This document shows, piece after piece, positions 24,700 through 32,667 of a stretch of DNA of 53,116 nucleotides. Position 1 is the first letter of the stretch, and every line of letters starts with the position of its first letter. The notes under the pieces were generated by a model, which was given only the letters and a program-made list of their open reading frames with translations, made no database searches and had not been told where the DNA came from. The stretch is taken from positions 1-53,116 of the forward strand of contig JAFSWB010000041.1 of assembly GCA_017444735.1 (NCBI GenBank), given 5' to 3'. Source of the DNA: Clostridia bacterium (lineage in GTDB: Bacteria > Bacillota > Clostridia > Oscillospirales > CAG-272). Both the position numbers and the translations under genes were made by a program.

Positions 24700-24735
24700 A
24701 AAAACAACGGCTTCGGATCGAAGCCGTGTTTTTTT
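24699..24735. terminator. Bidirectional terminator between trkH and the glycyl radical genes
   Basis: ACGGCTTCG and CGAAGCCGT form a perfect 9-bp stem around GAT (24707-24727). An A run lies to its left and a T run to its right, so it can stop both convergent operons. Confidence 0.88.
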
Positions 24736-24771: not shown

Positions 24772-26940
24772 TCAGACGCCCATATCGATAAACGTCCGGG
24801 CTATCACGTTATCCTGCAGACCCTCATCGAGCTCGACGAAGTAGCCGGAAAAGCCGCCGACGCGGACGATGAGGTCGCGGTGGCGTTCCGGGTGGATCTT
24901 CGCGTCGAGAAGGTCCTCGGGGCTTACGACCGTCGCGGTGTACTGCTGACCGCCGCCCGCGAAATACGCTTTGGCGAGATGCTTGAACGCCTCCTTGCCC
25001 TTCGGGGTACAGAAGACCTTTTTATCGAATTTCATCTGAAAAATGAAGCCGGAACAGCAGTTCCTGTGGTCGTATTTCAAGACGGAATTGATGTGTGATG
25101 TCGGTCCGCGGACGTCGCATCCGGGGACGGCGGCGATAGAGTCCGCGATAAGCGGCTCGCCCTTCTTTTTGCCGTTCGGCAGAGCGGCGATCCTCGAGCC
25201 GTAGCCCGCCGCGCGGTCGTCCGGCGAGCATCCGCCGGTGAAGACGCCGCCGCGGTACGTGCGGTTCCTCTTCAGGACCTTGAAAAACCGGTTTATGATA
25301 CGCGCGGTGATCTCGTCGACCTCCGCCTCGTCGTTTCCGAATTTCTCGCAGTGTGAAAAATCGTAATAAAGCTCGTCGTACCCCTCGAAATTCGCCCGGA
25401 GCGCGTCGAGGAGCTGCGCCATCGTGTATTTTTTCTCGATGAAGACGAGCTTTTTGATCGCCCAGAGCGAGTCGCCCGTGTCGGCGATCGCCTCGGCGAG
25501 GATCTGACCGTGATTATAGAGCGGTCCGCCGTTCCTGTAGTCGATCCCGCGTTCGAGACAGCCCTCGATCAGGCAAGAGCGGAGCGGATTCGGCTGCCAG
25601 ACGCCTCTCGTGTGCTGACAGGCGTCCGCCGACTCGCACGCCATATACGTGACGTATTCGAGCTGGCGCATGAAGGCGCGCTCCATTTCCTCATAATCGG
25701 CGAACTCCGACGCCTCTCCCGTCTGGATGGAGTCGTAACGCTCGAGCATCTCGTTGTAACCGTTGTAGAGCGCGTATTCAAGACACTTGCCGAAAACGAC
25801 CTCGCCGTCCTCGAGACCCATGTGGCTCTTGCCCATTATGTCGATCTGATTACAGCCGTTCATGCAGTAGAGATGACTGTCGCGCGGCGGGATACCGACC
25901 TTTTCGAGCGCGTCGCAGACGACCTCGTCGTTGTAGATCGCCGGCATTCCGATCCCGGACGCGAGCGTTTCCGCCGCCTCGTCCCAGAGCTTCTCCGGGG
26001 TGTTCCGGTGGACCCTCATCGTAAGGTTCGGAGTCTCGTATTTCCGCTCTCTCGCGATCTTCAGGATCGCGTATGAGAGGGAATTCGTCTTGTCGTTCCA
26101 AGTCTCGTCCGAACCGGAGATACAGAGGTTCCACGTTCTCGTGTCGTGAAAACATTCCCAGAGGCGGGAGAGGACGTCGAGCTTTTCTTCCTCCGACCCG
26201 GTCGCATCCCACGAACGGAACATATACTGGTCGAAACGGCCGGGGGAATCGACTCCGTCGAGCGTGAATATCATCCAGAAAACGAGTCCCGCGGCGGTGA
26301 AATCGGGAGCCGGTCGGCGCGGCGCGACCGAAAACGCTTCCGCGGCTTTTTCATAGCGTCTTTTGTCGGCCGGATCCTGACATTCGGCCGCTTTTTCCGC
26401 GGCGAGCGCGCGGAAGCGGTCGCCGAGCGTGTCGATCGCGTCGAGCGTGTACCTGCATCCGCGGTAGAACCAGTCGGAGTCTTCCGTATTGATCTTTTCG
26501 TATTTGCCGATCAGCTCTCTCACGCCGTCGGTGCCGAGATTGACGATCCTTCCGAAATCGGGATTCGAATGACCCGCCCATCCGCCTCCCCACATTGCGG
26601 AGGAGAGGACGGAGTACCTCTCGAGGCGCGGCAGGTCGTGAGCCGCCGCCATATAGACGTTGTATTTTCCGTCGTATTCCCTGATCTTTTCTTCAAACTC
26701 GGGGTGACGCGCGATCATTTCCTCAAAGGCGTCGCGGCTGTAGGTAAATCCCATACCGTAGCTGAATCCGCCGCCGAAGCCGTGAGCGCGGGCGTCGACC
26801 GTCGGCATAATATTCCGGTCGAAAGAGATCGGAATATGGGGCGCGGCGCACTTCAGCGCGTACCCGACGCGCTCCGCGATCTCCGCGTCCTCGTCCGCGA
26901 AAAAGCCCTCCGCGTACGGATCAAGTTCGTAATAGTGCAT
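24772..26940 (-). CDS. Glycyl radical enzyme, second tandem copy
   Basis: The 722-residue protein has the pyruvate formate-lyase-type fold signals: a C-terminal radical loop RVGGFSGYF with the likely radical Gly696, followed by LQDNVIARTFIDMG. The active-site loop is YCMNGCNQIDIMGKSHMG, giving the thiyl candidate Cys363. The dehydratase/lyase class has Cys-x-Glu here and PFL has Cys-Cys. This protein has Cys-Asn-Gln, so neither activity can be assumed. It is clearly paralogous to the preceding gene through most of its length and differs mainly in the first 120 residues. The start codon directly abuts the stop of that gene. The reaction is unknown. Confidence 0.85.
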   Translation of the reverse strand: MHYYELDPYAEGFFADEDAEIAERVGYALKCAAPHIPISFDRNIMPTVDARAHGFGGGFSYGMGFTYSRDAFEEMIARHPEFEEKIREYDGKYNVYMAAAHDLPRLERYSVLSSAMWGGGWAGHSNPDFGRIVNLGTDGVRELIGKYEKINTEDSDWFYRGCRYTLDAIDTLGDRFRALAAEKAAECQDPADKRRYEKAAEAFSVAPRRPAPDFTAAGLVFWMIFTLDGVDSPGRFDQYMFRSWDATGSEEEKLDVLSRLWECFHDTRTWNLCISGSDETWNDKTNSLSYAILKIARERKYETPNLTMRVHRNTPEKLWDEAAETLASGIGMPAIYNDEVVCDALEKVGIPPRDSHLYCMNGCNQIDIMGKSHMGLEDGEVVFGKCLEYALYNGYNEMLERYDSIQTGEASEFADYEEMERAFMRQLEYVTYMACESADACQHTRGVWQPNPLRSCLIEGCLERGIDYRNGGPLYNHGQILAEAIADTGDSLWAIKKLVFIEKKYTMAQLLDALRANFEGYDELYYDFSHCEKFGNDEAEVDEITARIINRFFKVLKRNRTYRGGVFTGGCSPDDRAAGYGSRIAALPNGKKKGEPLIADSIAAVPGCDVRGPTSHINSVLKYDHRNCCSGFIFQMKFDKKVFCTPKGKEAFKHLAKAYFAGGGQQYTATVVSPEDLLDAKIHPERHRDLIVRVGGFSGYFVELDEGLQDNVIARTFIDMGV

Positions 26941-29115
26941 TTATACCCCCATATCGACGATCGAACGCGCAATAACGTTATCCTGAAGACCCTCTTCGAG
27001 GTTGACGAAATAGTCGCTGTATCCTCCGACGCGGACGATCAGGTCGCGGTGGCGTTCCGGGTGGACCTTCGCGTCGAGCAGATCCGCGGGATTGACGACG
27101 TTGACGGTGTACTGCTGACCGCCGCCGGCGAAGAACGCCTTTGCGAGCGTCTTGAACGCCTCTTTACCCTTCGGCGTGTTGAAGACCTTCTTGTCGAATT
27201 TCGTCTGGAAGATGAAACCGGAGCAGGAATCGACGTGATTGTAGTTGAGGACCGACTTGATGTGAGCGGTGGGACCGCACGTGTCGCATCCCGGAACGGC
27301 GGCGATACTGTCGGCGATAAGCGATTCGCCCTTCTTCTTCCCGTTCGGAAGCGCGGCGATCCTGATCCCGTAACCGGCGGCGCGGGAGAACGGCGAGCAT
27401 CCGCCCGTAAAGACGCCTCCGCGGTACGTGTGATGACGCTTGAGGATCGTGAAGAAGCGGTTGAGGGCGCGCGCGGTGATCTCGTCGACTTCTTTGATAT
27501 CGTTGCCGAATTTCTCGCAGTGCGAGAAGTCGTAGTAAAGCTGATCGTACCCCTCGAAGTTCGCGTCGAGAGCGTCGATGAGCTCGCTCATCGTGTATTT
27601 CTTCTCAATGAAAACGAGCTTCTTGATCGCCCAGAGCGAGTCTCCCGCGTCGGCTATCGCCTCGGCGAGGACCTGACCGTGATTGTAGAGAGGCCCGCCG
27701 TTTCTGTAGTCGATCCCTCGTTCGAGGCAGCCCTCGATGAGGCACGAGCGGTACGGGTTCGGCTGGAACGCCGCCCTGATGTGCTGCGCGTCGTTTGACG
27801 CGCTGCAGGCGATGAACGTCGCGTATTCGACCTGCTGATCGAACGCGTTTTCGAGCTCCTCGTACGACTCGAATTTTCTCGCGTCGCCGGTCGGGATCGA
27901 GATCTTCTTGCCGTTGATCGCGTCGACTCCGTTGTGAAGAGCGAGCTCGAGGCACTTGCCGAGAACGACCTCGCCGTCCTCGAGGCCCATGTGGCTCTTG
28001 CCCATGATGTCGACCTGGTTGCACCCGTTCATGCAGTAGAGATGGCTGTCGCACGGCGGGATCCCGATTTTTTCGAGCGCCGGGCACATCGTCTCGTCGT
28101 TGTAGAGGGCGGGCATACCGATCCCCGTCGCGAGCGTGTCGGCGATCGCGTCCCAGAGCTTCTCCGGGGTGTTGCGGTGAACGCGGAGCGTGATGTTCGG
28201 CGTCTGATATTTTTTCTCGCGCGCGATGGCGAGGATATCGTACGTCAGGCCGTTTGTGTCGTCGTTCCAGTTCTCGTCGGAGCCGGAGAGGCAGAGATTC
28301 CACGTTCTCGTGTCGTGGAAGCACTCCCACAGCCGTTCGAGCGCGTCGAGGACGTCCTCGCGGGGCTGGGGGATCTCGTAAGCGCGCTTCATGAACTGGT
28401 CGAAGCGGCCGGGCGAGTCGATCCCGTCAAACGTGAAGATCATCCAGAACACGTGGCACGCCGAGGTGAAGTCGTACGCCGGTTTTCTCGGCACGACGGA
28501 GAACGCCTCGGCGGCTTTCTCGTAGCGTTTTTTGTCGGCGGGGTCGCCGCACTCCGCCGCTTTCTCCTCGGCGAGAGCGCGGAAGCGGTCTCCGAGGATA
28601 TCGACGGCGTCGAGCGCGTATTCGCACGCGCGGTAGAACCAGTCGGCGTCTTCGGTGTTGATCGCTTTGTATTTGTTTATCATCTCTCTGATCCCGTCCG
28701 TGCCGAGATTGATGATGCGGCCGAAGTCGGGGTTGCTGTGGCCGCCCCATCCGCCGCCCCAGAGGACTCCGGCGTCGGCGAGATCCGAGTAGATATTCGT
28801 CCTGATGAGGGTTTGAGACGTCATGCGGTGCGGGAGCGTCTTATTCCGGATTGCGTCGATCCTCCCGCGCTCCTCGGGATGATCCTCGTAGAAGTCGTCG
28901 TCGTGGCGGAACGAGAGACCCTCCGAAAAGAGGAAACAGGCGCGCTCCCCGTCCTCGTTTGCGAAAACCTGCGGAAGGATATGATCTCCGAACGATATCT
29001 TGAACGTCTTCGCGCCCTCTTTAAGGGCGAGCCCGACGCGCTCCGCGCGCTCCAGGCCTTCGTTCTCGTAAAATGCGACCGTCACGGGATCGCGGCTGTA
29101 ATCTTTCATTTTCAT
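26941..29115 (-). CDS. Glycyl radical enzyme, first tandem copy
   Basis: This 724-residue glycyl radical enzyme carries the C-terminal radical motif RVGGYSDYF with Gly698. The active-site loop YCMNGCNQVDIMGKSHMG has the thiyl candidate Cys365, with Gln367 where most dehydratase-type members have glutamate. Blocks such as FHDTRTWNLCLSGSDENW and HRNTPEKLWD are shared with the downstream copy. It is somewhat shorter than PFL, CutC or glycerol dehydratase. The ATG at 29115 was chosen because AGGAGG lies eight bases before it; the longer frame starts inside the activase gene. It sits 13 bases after the activase, so both enzymes are probably activated by it. The substrate is unknown. Confidence 0.86.
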   Translation of the reverse strand: MKMKDYSRDPVTVAFYENEGLERAERVGLALKEGAKTFKISFGDHILPQVFANEDGERACFLFSEGLSFRHDDDFYEDHPEERGRIDAIRNKTLPHRMTSQTLIRTNIYSDLADAGVLWGGGWGGHSNPDFGRIINLGTDGIREMINKYKAINTEDADWFYRACEYALDAVDILGDRFRALAEEKAAECGDPADKKRYEKAAEAFSVVPRKPAYDFTSACHVFWMIFTFDGIDSPGRFDQFMKRAYEIPQPREDVLDALERLWECFHDTRTWNLCLSGSDENWNDDTNGLTYDILAIAREKKYQTPNITLRVHRNTPEKLWDAIADTLATGIGMPALYNDETMCPALEKIGIPPCDSHLYCMNGCNQVDIMGKSHMGLEDGEVVLGKCLELALHNGVDAINGKKISIPTGDARKFESYEELENAFDQQVEYATFIACSASNDAQHIRAAFQPNPYRSCLIEGCLERGIDYRNGGPLYNHGQVLAEAIADAGDSLWAIKKLVFIEKKYTMSELIDALDANFEGYDQLYYDFSHCEKFGNDIKEVDEITARALNRFFTILKRHHTYRGGVFTGGCSPFSRAAGYGIRIAALPNGKKKGESLIADSIAAVPGCDTCGPTAHIKSVLNYNHVDSCSGFIFQTKFDKKVFNTPKGKEAFKTLAKAFFAGGGQQYTVNVVNPADLLDAKVHPERHRDLIVRVGGYSDYFVNLEEGLQDNVIARSIVDMGV

Positions 29116-29128
29116 TTTTCGTACCTCC

Positions 29129-30022
29129 TCATTCGGAAATCTTAACGCTGACGCCGTTTTTTTCAAACAGGCGGAGCCAGCGGTCTTTTTCTTCCTGCCC
29201 GGCGTTTTCCGCCTCGTGCGCGGGAACGCCGCCGAGCTTTCTCATTTTTCCGACGCCGAGCGCGTGATACGGCATGATCTCGGCGTACCGGTATTCTCCC
29301 TCGTGCTTTTTCAGGAAATCCGACAGCCGTCCTATGTCGTCGTCACCGTCGTTTATCCCGGGTATCATAGGCAATCTGATCCTGACGTCCGCTCCCCGCG
29401 AGAGGAGATATTCGAGATTGTCGATGATCGCCCGGTTGTCCGCTCCCGTCAGCTCGCGGTGACGGACGGGGTCCATACATTTCAGGTCAAACAGGAAAGT
29501 CGTTCCGAGATCGGCGGCCTTCTCGTAAAACCACCGTGGTCCCATGCCGCACGTCTCGATCGCCAGCCCGATCCGCTCGGCCTTCGCCCGTTCGAGCAGC
29601 TCGAGCGTGAATTCCGGCTGATACGAGGGCTCGCCGCCCGAAACGGTCAGTCCCCCTCCCGATCTTTCATAGAACATACGGTCCTTCAGGACGTCGTTCA
29701 TTATCTCCTCCGCCGACTCCTCTCTTCCGAGAAGCTCGTTGGCGTCGTTGAGACAGACGCCGACGCATTTTCCGCAGTGCGTGCATTTTCCGCGGTCGAG
29801 AACGAGCGCGCCGTTCTCGATGCGCCGCGCGGGACACCCCTCGAGGCATCGGCCGCACGCGGTACACCGCGAGGCGGTGAACGAGAGGGAAACGGTCTTG
29901 TAAAGGCCCTCCGGATTATGGCACCAGATGCATTTCAGAGGGCATCCTTTGAGAAACACGCAGGTCCTTATCCCGTCCCCGTCGTGGATACAGAATTTCT
30001 GAATATTGAATACGGTCCCCAC
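29129..30022 (-). CDS. Glycyl radical enzyme activating enzyme (radical SAM)
   Basis: This 297-residue radical SAM enzyme installs the glycyl radical on its partner. The SAM-cluster cysteines are in GCPLKCIWCHNPEG, the CX3CX2C form. Two further ferredoxin-type clusters follow, CTACGRCLEGCP and CTHCGKCVGVC, as in activases of dehydratase-type enzymes but not of PFL. GGLTVSGGEPSYQPEF supplies the SAM-binding GGE. I chose GTG at 30022, since GGAGG lies about 11 bases before it and upstream residues run into the promoter. It heads the operon with the two glycyl radical enzymes. Oxygen sensitivity and anaerobic use follow from the family. Confidence 0.93.
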   Translation of the reverse strand: MGTVFNIQKFCIHDGDGIRTCVFLKGCPLKCIWCHNPEGLYKTVSLSFTASRCTACGRCLEGCPARRIENGALVLDRGKCTHCGKCVGVCLNDANELLGREESAEEIMNDVLKDRMFYERSGGGLTVSGGEPSYQPEFTLELLERAKAERIGLAIETCGMGPRWFYEKAADLGTTFLFDLKCMDPVRHRELTGADNRAIIDNLEYLLSRGADVRIRLPMIPGINDGDDDIGRLSDFLKKHEGEYRYAEIMPYHALGVGKMRKLGGVPAHEAENAGQEEKDRWLRLFEKNGVSVKISE

Positions 30023-30077
30023 GGGGGCGTCACCTCCTCCGGAACGGCTTCCGCCGCCGAACGTTTCAAACCGTACC

Positions 30078-30106
30078 ATTATACCATATTTCGACCGCGG
30101 AGTCAA
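30078..30106 (-). promoter_or_regulatory. Promoter of the glycyl radical operon
   Basis: On the minus strand TTGACT (30101-30106) and a perfect TATAAT (30078-30083) with a preceding TGG are spaced by 17 bases. It is among the strongest-looking promoters in the window, about 55 bases before the activase GTG. Confidence 0.8.
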
Positions 30107-31323: not shown

Positions 31324-32667
31324 TTGTATACCTTTAAGGGAGGCACCCACATAAAGGAATATAAGCTGACGAAGGACTATGAGATCGAGCGTATCGAGGC
31401 GCCCGACCGCGTCGCGATCTCGATGAGTCAGCACATCGGCGCGCCCTGTACGCCCGTCGTCGCGGCGGGAGACGAGGTCCTCGTCGGTCAGGTGATCGGG
31501 ACGGTGCCGGACGGCGCCCTCGGATGTCCCGTTCACTCCTCCGTGTCGGGCAAAGTCGTCGGGACCGAGATAATAAGCGGATCGACGGGAAACCGCGAGA
31601 CGTGCGTCGTCATCGAGAACGACAAGGAGGACAGGCCGTCCCCCGAAATAAAACCCCCGGAGGGTAGGATCACGGAGATGACGAAGGATGAGATCGTCTC
31701 CGTCATCCGCGCGGCGGGCATTACCGGGATGGGAGGCGCGTCCTTCCCGTCGTACGCGAAGATCAACTCGGCGGCGGGTCACGTCGACCGCGTGATCGTC
31801 AACTGCGCGGAGTGCGAGCCGTTCATCACGGCGGACCACCGCCTTCTTCTCGAGCATCCGGAGCGCGTCGTCGGCGGTCTTAAAACGATAATGATCTCTC
31901 TCGGCGTGAAAGAGGCTTTCATCGCCGTCGAGGACAACAAGAAGGACGCCGCGCGCCGCCTCGCCGCCGTCGTCGGGCAGAGCGATATGATATCCGTCTG
32001 CCTGATGAAGACGAAATATCCGCAGGGCGACGAGCGCCAGCTCATATACGCTCTCACCGGGACGGAGCTCCCGATGGGGATGCTTCCGATGGACGCGGGA
32101 TGCGTCATTTTCAACGCCGGGACGTGCGCCGCGATCTATGAGGCGTTCTCGACCGGCATGCCGCTTGTGAAGAGGATCGTCACCGTCACGGGCGACTGCG
32201 TGAAAAAACCGGGCAACTACATAATCCCGATCGGAATGAAGGTGTCCGACGTCGTAAATAAATGCGGCGGACTCGTCAGAGAGCCGATCAAGGCGGTCTT
32301 CGGCGGCCCGATGATGGGCAGAGCGGAGTTCTCGCTCGACACTCCCGTCAAGAAGGGGACCTCGGCGATCCTGCTCCTCTCCGAGCTGTTCGACACCAAA
32401 CCGACGCCCGATCCCGAGTGCATAAGGTGCGGCAAATGCGTCGCGAACTGTCCGATGCGGCTGATGCCGGCGTACATCGCCCAGTATTCCCGCCTCGGCG
32501 ATATGGCGTCCGCCGAGAAGTTCGGCGCGATGAGCTGCGTCGAGTGCGGCACCTGTTCTTACAACTGCCCGGCGGGAATCGAGATCGTCCAGTATATCAG
32601 AAGCGCAAAGAACAACATCAAAGCCGAACAGCGGCGCATCGCCGCTCTCAGGCAGAAAGAATCGTGA
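31324..32667 (+). CDS. rnfC: Rnf electron transport complex subunit C
   Basis: RnfC is the peripheral FMN- and NADH-binding subunit of the Rnf complex. The 447-residue protein begins MYTFKGGTHIKEYK, as RnfC proteins do. It has the nucleotide and flavin region GITGMGGASFPSYAK and VNCAECEPFITADH. Two 4Fe-4S motifs follow near the C-terminus, CIRCGKCVANCP and CVECGTCSYNCP. The start is TTG at 31324, with GGAG nine bases upstream; a nearby ATG is out of frame. It opens the rnfCDGEAB operon, in the gene order common in clostridia. Confidence 0.96.
   Translation: MYTFKGGTHIKEYKLTKDYEIERIEAPDRVAISMSQHIGAPCTPVVAAGDEVLVGQVIGTVPDGALGCPVHSSVSGKVVGTEIISGSTGNRETCVVIENDKEDRPSPEIKPPEGRITEMTKDEIVSVIRAAGITGMGGASFPSYAKINSAAGHVDRVIVNCAECEPFITADHRLLLEHPERVVGGLKTIMISLGVKEAFIAVEDNKKDAARRLAAVVGQSDMISVCLMKTKYPQGDERQLIYALTGTELPMGMLPMDAGCVIFNAGTCAAIYEAFSTGMPLVKRIVTVTGDCVKKPGNYIIPIGMKVSDVVNKCGGLVREPIKAVFGGPMMGRAEFSLDTPVKKGTSAILLLSELFDTKPTPDPECIRCGKCVANCPMRLMPAYIAQYSRLGDMASAEKFGAMSCVECGTCSYNCPAGIEIVQYIRSAKNNIKAEQRRIAALRQKES

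Follow-up and report, generated by a model that had tools for sequence, protein, structure and literature searches.

Glycyl radical enzymes (GREs) that act as eliminases are described as carrying a conserved mark on their Cys loop, a glutamate two residues after the catalytic cysteine (Cys-X-Glu, or CXE). In the open-access literature, at the level of the text accessible for searching, the phrase "CXE motif" matched two articles alone (PMC7077986 and PMC8473560). According to the accessible portion of the first, the E436Q, H160Q and D339N mutants of trans-4-hydroxy-L-proline dehydratase (HypD) are inactive, Glu436 has a positioning role, Asp278/Asp339 carry out the acid/base work, and Tyr450 hydrogen-bonds the substrate carboxylate (PMC7077986); according to that of the second, IslA E470Q is inactive (PMC8473560). 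Benzylsuccinate synthase carries Cys493 with Ser495 two residues on (PMC13298812, excerpt) and binds fumarate through Arg508 (PMC13298812 and PMC12358834, excerpts). We found no natural Cys-X-Gln GRE in the titles and abstract openings of the open-access literature, which is not proof of absence, and a text find in the accessible part of PMC11528403 returned nothing on the Cys loop or on glutamine.

We analyzed a 53,116-nucleotide stretch of DNA from a Clostridia bacterium (hereafter the window), in which a single minus-strand operon encodes an activase, then GRE1, then GRE2. GRE2 (24772..26940, minus strand; 722 aa) matches PF02901 at 328.9 bits and PF01228 at 72.9 bits, and GRE1 (26941..29115, minus strand; 724 aa from the ATG at 29115) matches the same two Pfam families, with its mechanically called ORF starting at a TTG upstream of that ATG. 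GAGGAGG stands ahead of the GRE1 ATG with 8 bases between, a clear ribosome-binding site; the TAA stop of GRE1 directly abuts the ATG of GRE2, and the two proteins are 69% identical over 724 columns. The activase (29129..30022, minus strand) is a radical SAM protein with two ferredoxin-type cluster motifs that scores 317.3 bits with TIGR02494 (cut-off 174.35) and falls under the cut-off of every equivalog model among the 25 of 33 families listed. Its start is probably the GTG at 30022 behind GGAGGAGG, within a mechanical ORF of 29129..30106. By consensus match, a sigma-70-like promoter (TTGACT and TATAAT 17 apart, 11/12 matches, TG before the second hexamer) lies at 30078..30106 on the minus strand, one of five promoter-like sites in the region against 1.4 expected. 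By pattern match, a terminator-like hairpin with a T tail follows GRE2 (24707..24727, minus strand, also reading on the plus strand), one of 13 such hairpins against 6.8 expected. The operon has as neighbors convergent trkA/trkH and, beyond an ORF that clusters with a pseudouridine synthase of locus L024, rnfC; we found no link between the trkA/trkH or rnfC neighbors and the GREs. The rnfC gene (31324-32667, plus strand) runs opposite to the GRE operon, with more same-strand ORFs after it. The window's genome also holds (G000:C78, locus L003) a 311-aa fragment of a third GRE, which stops short of the Cys loop.

Both proteins show all the features that define the GRE superfamily, namely PFL-like and glycyl-radical domains, a catalytic Cys, a radical Gly and a dedicated radical SAM activase, and an AF2 model of GRE2 (pLDDT 93.7) adopts the full GRE fold. 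The Cys loop of GRE2 is YCMNGCNQIDIMGKSHMG, with the codons of Cys363 and Gln365 at 25852-25854 and 25846-25848 (Cys363-Asn364-Gln365, 25846..25854, minus strand); that of GRE1 is YCMNGCNQVDIMGKSHMG, with the codons of Cys365 and Gln367 at 28021-28023 and 28015-28017 (Cys365-Asn366-Gln367, 28015..28023, minus strand). The Gln codon is CAG in each, and the shared reading is YCMNGCNQ[I/V]DIMGKSHMG, such that the Cys-X-Glu mark of eliminases is absent from both copies, which read Cys-Asn-Gln (CNQ). By alignment, the radical glycines are Gly696 of GRE2 (RVGGFS; 24853..24855, minus strand) and Gly698 of GRE1 (RVGGYS; 27022..27024, minus strand). The catalytic Cys aligns, with no nearby gap, with the CXE-loop Cys of choline TMA-lyase CutC and diol dehydratase, and Q365 falls ungapped on residue 491 of CutC chain 5fav, which is Gln there by mutation and Glu in the other CutC chains shown. 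The original prediction was that both copies keep the radical-glycine loop and a likely thiyl cysteine while Gln replaces the CXE glutamate; the alignment places the catalytic Cys where it had been put, and the codons confirm the replacement. The prediction also mentioned a second Cys four residues earlier (YCMNGC), which is indeed present in both copies but is not distinctive: this Cys is ordinary, because it is replaced in some CNQ rows (Val in 4/96, Ala in 1/96) and is found in CutC and GrpM.

CNQ is a family-wide, selected feature within a known kind of GRE and not an artefact. A first alignment took 98 distinct GRE ORFs, each 450 aa or longer, from the loci of relatives, and 96 of them read CNQ; these comprise all 96 relative rows above 500 bits, with none below 400 bits, and the two remaining ORFs score 358 bits (L023) and 89 bits (L073:5002-7149) against the window proteins. 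Because every relative row above 500 bits reads CNQ, the triplet is not a sequencing slip, as had been argued from its occurrence in both paralogs. Another 80 rows, drawn from 60 further regions of related genomes and from plasmid and E. coli references, include no CNQ and no score above 358 bits. The genome-contig scan is biased in that YCMNGCNQ was among its six search peptides; a whole-protein search and a class-wide profile search, both independent of that peptide, also returned CNQ in their close matches, the latter in all ten rows above 500 bits (two being the window's own) and in none of the rest, which score at most 383 bits. Glu stands at Cys+2 in 95 of 104 other GRE rows. Among 202 GRE ORFs of at least 600 aa, a sample weighted to the query's relatives, the triplets are CNQ (101), CQE (31), CVE (30), CIE (16), CWE (5), CTE (4), CSQ (3), CYE (3), CGE (2), CVS (2, PFL) and, once each, CNW, CLG, CDE, CVQ and CVV. 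A search for a named close relative on plasmids was abandoned at about 30% identity or less, among 40 of 137 plasmid records listed.

In an IQ-TREE phylogeny of 104 representatives, the CNQ sequences are monophyletic (UFBoot 100) and belong to a superclade (UFBoot 94) of CNQ, CTE, CSQ, CQE and CGE sequences, outside of which fall one CTE row (L192) and two CQE rows in the clade labelled by L154. All eight labelled references also lie outside the superclade: HypD, CutC, GrpM, PflD, YbiW, PflB, a Monoglobus PFL and a Novosphingobium GRE. The clustering that would have refuted the original prediction was not seen: the CNQ sequences cluster inside no characterized group in trees from which benzylsuccinate synthase, MasD, HPAD, IAD, IslA and HpsG are absent as sequences; these were compared via NCBIfam models (where listed), phmmer and fold. 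Judging from the aligned sequences, Gln at Cys+2 occurs in at least three places of the GRE tree: besides CNQ, the three CSQ sequences (L122, L180, L184) form a separate clade within the superclade (UFBoot 100), and the one CVQ sequence (L190) is placed elsewhere; both groups are likewise uncharacterized GREs. FastTree and IQ-TREE place CSQ differently, and the CNQ node has a support of just 0.747 in FastTree. Since branch order inside the superclade is weakly supported (UFBoot 66-72), Gln may have arisen there once or more often. In the rows inspected, superclade members share a deletion of about seven residues ahead of SPGRFDQ; the Gly preceding its radical Gly is not exclusive, being present in 44/103 other rows. 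Three single GREs carry other residues at Cys+2, namely L194 (CVV), which adjoins CutC in the tree, L166 (CLG, on a Novosphingobium plasmid) and L073:5002-7149 (CNW).

The genome-contig scan yielded 78 loci from the best 80 of 132 stretches; a ruminant gut site is named in 52 of the 78 locus titles, and all titles are of uncultured genomes. CNQ-level profile matches occur in 11/245 genomes from the order (loops checked for part), in 7/391 from the class by score gap (CNQ loop checked at one locus in each of the seven) and in 1/398 from the phylum, that one being the window's own; each count includes the window's genome, with two to four candidates scored per genome. Locus titles include Victivallales and Lentisphaeria, which would mean transfer between phyla unless the contigs were wrongly binned. 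We did not find pflB in the window's genome, which is 80.67% complete. We rejected the CNQ GRE as a simple stand-in for PFL: two genomes of the same genus (G006 and G010) hold pflB over the cut-off, and in a third genome (G014) a CNQ GRE and pflB sit within a few kb of each other on one contig.

Purifying selection acts on both copies. Measured against orthologs from three relatives, Nei-Gojobori dN/dS values are 0.093, 0.097 and 0.098 (GRE1) and 0.103, 0.098 and 0.124 (GRE2), at dS values of 0.9-1.35 that are near saturation. Because the tree places orthologs of both copies in related genomes, the duplication is older than the related species and both copies have been kept. Across 79 loci we counted one CNQ ORF in 66, two in nine and three in four, numbers that include contig-end fragments and a two-ORF locus (L087) that resembles a split gene. 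Five matches in a row, at 46-54% identity, are present in one relative (G044).

Pocket assignments here are made from alignment columns. To compare these, we set 103 distinct sequences picked by their CNQ triplet against 104 other Cys-aligned rows, with gaps set aside, so that N364 and Q365 are fixed by construction. Beyond these, N361, D367, H373, E380, Q479, E483, W270 and R576 are near-fixed in CNQ sequences and rare elsewhere: H373 and D367 are each found in 103/103 CNQ against 0/104 other sequences, E483 in 102/102 against 0/104, and E380 in 102/103 against 0/103. R268 follows less clearly (102/102 against 13/94), in a column that is poorly aligned in the others and for which two alignments differ for HypD. 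H124 is common to both sets (100/100 against 91/102), and the radical Gly is present in 100/100 CNQ-type sequences reaching that column. The clade-specific residues were all fixed in one ancestor, and therefore count as one event and not as independent support. Among them, the acidic Glu380 of GRE2 (25801..25803, minus strand) and its GRE1 equivalent Glu382 (27970..27972, minus strand) lie at Cys+17, in a column that holds Tyr in HypD (Tyr450, offset 16), Tyr in CutC (offset 17) and Arg in two PFLs (offset 16). The PFL Arg is Arg435 and the CutC Tyr is Tyr506; in PFL, the substrate carboxylate is bound at the Arg435 position. A Glu in this column argues against a carboxylate bound there, as in HypD, and favors a hydroxyl or amine. 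The main refinement to emerge is that the lost glutamate is accompanied by a glutamate gained in another pocket column. CSQ sequences have a Glu at column 571 (3/3) and the CVQ sequence has Glu at columns 477, 572 and 665, which is compatible with repeated relocation, although a chance Glu somewhere is to be expected over so many columns.

A same-strand activase homolog adjoins the CNQ gene in 37/79 CNQ loci (31 upstream, 6 downstream), and an activase model matches elsewhere in the locus in 7/79. No activase was seen in 11/79 loci with a cut flank, nor in 24/79 whose two flanks each reach 1 kb or more (L038, L062, L072 and L076 among them). Of the seven loci with a match elsewhere, L054 and L089 gave weak activase matches lacking the Cys motif; in L058, L059 and L061, a 256-aa activase homolog sits next to a further GRE-like ORF on the opposite strand, which in L059 is apparently the pflB seen in G014, and in L073 an activase homolog lies beside the CNW GRE. 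Two loci with cut flanks (L067 and L068) have a divergent radical SAM gene just downstream of the CNQ GRE. We scanned 110 of 214 candidate neighbors, leaving out GREs, activases and one cluster of ORFs read as antisense to activases, and found no family recurring more than four times, with aldo/keto reductase the commonest (4). A directon scan covered 27 loci, comprising 22 of the 24 activase-less loci, two with a weak match and three with a cut flank; of its neighbors of at least 250 aa, 33 of 48 were scanned singly, chosen non-randomly, against a random control of 20 of 159. The L076 directon holds GH141-like, DUF4838, GDSL, glucuronyl esterase and GH4 genes, while DUF4838 precedes L083, GH28 lies two genes before L086, a sulfatase precedes L072, and an MGH1-like GH gene follows the CNQ GRE in L085, which has a cut flank. 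In total, families that we counted as carbohydrate-degrading account for 8/33 neighbors (four from L076) against 1/20 controls, a raw difference in counts that is suggestive; the figure is six without DUF4838, a family linked to carbohydrates. The window's own operon has no carbohydrate-type neighbor. Overall, the gene contexts of related members lean weakly toward carbohydrate-derived substrates.

We tentatively favor, at somewhat under an even chance, a model in which the CNQ proteins would constitute an uncharacterized family of catalytically competent GREs whose acid/base residue has been relocated. Their substrate would be small and hydroxylated, and perhaps derived from carbohydrate. By homology to other GREs, the radical SAM activase would put the radical on Gly696/698, from which it would move to Cys363/365, and the resulting thiyl would take a hydrogen atom from a small, polar substrate. 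Gln365 could hydrogen-bond a substrate hydroxyl but would be unable to deprotonate it, and the acid/base role may now fall to a different clade-invariant residue. Glu380 is the likeliest candidate, with help from His124, which is the His kept from the His-Glu pair of HypD. E380 could instead serve in substrate binding, or in a pairing with some other residue, and not be a base. Retention of two paralogs through the lineage may reflect two related substrates or conditions. Where the original prediction pointed to an undescribed reaction class, an eliminase whose base has moved is an equally plausible reading, because the pocket has gained E380, E483, D367 and H373.

The strongest rival is a non-eliminase reaction, which we consider possible though doubtful: the enzyme would form no ketyl radical by deprotonation, and would rearrange, epimerize, split a C-C bond or transfer a group, just as PFL and the fumarate-adding enzymes work with no such Glu. 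It is favored by the characterized non-eliminases available for comparison, which also lack Glu at Cys+2, with both PFLs reading C-V-S and benzylsuccinate synthase having Cys493/Ser495 (PMC13298812, excerpt), and by the inactivity of Glu-to-Gln mutants in two eliminases, HypD (PMC7077986) and IslA (PMC8473560); the gain of E380, on the other hand, favors a moved acid. Moreover, the invariant polar set of H124, Q365, E377, D378, E380 and Q479 would resemble a pocket for a hydroxylated substrate and not for a hydrocarbon, the PFL Cys pair is missing, and the window shows no gene for an accessory subunit next to the operon. That CNQ GREs catalyze a reaction new to GREs, and that Gln365 and Glu380 as a pair replace the CXE glutamate in it (for example, in the radical epimerization, isomerization or C-C cleavage of sugars or sugar acids from plant cell walls in the ruminant gut), is in our view unlikely, if worth entertaining; were it true, the tandem paralogs would cover different sugars.

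Less probable still is an ordinary eliminase, in which Gln365 just positions the substrate as Glu436 is described as doing in HypD while His124, Asp378 and others perform acid/base chemistry, making the change conservative and the chemistry not new. The division of labor between Glu436 and Asp278/Asp339 described in the accessible text of PMC7077986 and the retention of H124 and D378 agree with such an enzyme; E436Q, however, is inactive even in HypD in that same text, CNQ sequences differ from other GREs in many columns at once, and they and the whole superclade lack the roughly seven residues before SPGRFDQ, including the His-Ser of diol-dehydratase-like rows. A spare-part, regulatory or decaying GRE without enzymatic function is very improbable: the 24/79 loci with at least 1 kb flanks and no recognized activase would fit it, but the radical Gly is intact in all 100 CNQ-type sequences reaching its column, dN/dS is about 0.1 in both copies, and the window copies come with an activase of their own and a promoter-like site, GRE1 also with a clear ribosome-binding site. 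A family of 103 distinct sequences with a natural Gln and new fixed acidic residues makes it possible to ask whether the base can move or whether Glu marks a reaction class, and offers a precise target within the radical metabolism of bacteria from the ruminant gut.

CQE GREs (most of L102-L121) resemble the CNQ GREs at about 30-35% identity; many lie in the same genomes, and they too occur in tandem arrays. They have the deletion and the GKS and EDG motifs in common with CNQ GREs, but retain the Glu at Cys+2 and lack one at column 380; we found no characterized member among them in this comparison. In three same-genus genomes (L110, L112, L113), the sister CQE GRE is seemingly embedded among genes of pyrimidine biosynthesis: carbamoyl-phosphate synthase, dihydroorotate dehydrogenase, OMP decarboxylase, phosphoribosyltransferase and aspartate/ornithine carbamoyltransferase each match two or three of 78 neighbors, with the L110 carbamoyl-phosphate synthase alone placed gene by gene and the others assigned from gene lengths. 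The CSQ GREs (L122, L180, L184) share the superclade and Gln at Cys+2, but have Glu at column 571 in place of E380. Among described enzymes, pyruvate formate-lyase differs by its Cys-Cys pair, where CNQ GREs have a single Cys, and with TIGR01255, whose cut-off is 994.2, the scores are 61.7 and 58.2 bits. X-succinate synthases are marked by Ser at Cys+2 (Ser495 in benzylsuccinate synthase), Arg508 for fumarate and accessory subunits; by published residue numbers (PMC13298812 and PMC12358834, excerpts), the CNQ GREs show Gln at Cys+2 and, in the column that probably corresponds to Arg508, Glu. The best scores with the NCBIfam models of HpsG/HpfG (263.5 against 1000), IAD (195.5 against 1100) and HPAD (149.7 against 1150) all stay below their cut-offs. 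With HypD (6vxc), GRE1 reaches 306.9 bits against a cut-off of 1100, the window activase falls below the HypD activase cut-off of 425, and the CNQ GREs have Gln for Glu436 and Glu for Tyr450. CutC (5fau; E491Q mutant 5fav) shares the fold and the YCxxGC before the catalytic Cys, but is 24-27% identical, with at most 300.6 bits against a cut-off of 1050, and the Gln that is a mutation in 5fav is natural here. Finally, the B12-independent glycerol/1,2-propanediol dehydratases (1r8w, 5i2g, 9rco) have the same fold along almost the full length of the chain (5i2g TMq 0.88), and share the catalytic Cys, the radical Gly and a His in the H124 column; at 25-29% identity, CNQ GREs differ from them in having Gln for the CXE Glu, in lacking the His-Ser segment before SPGRFDQ of diol-dehydratase-like rows, and in having E380 where GrpM and glycerol-dehydratase-like rows have Phe.
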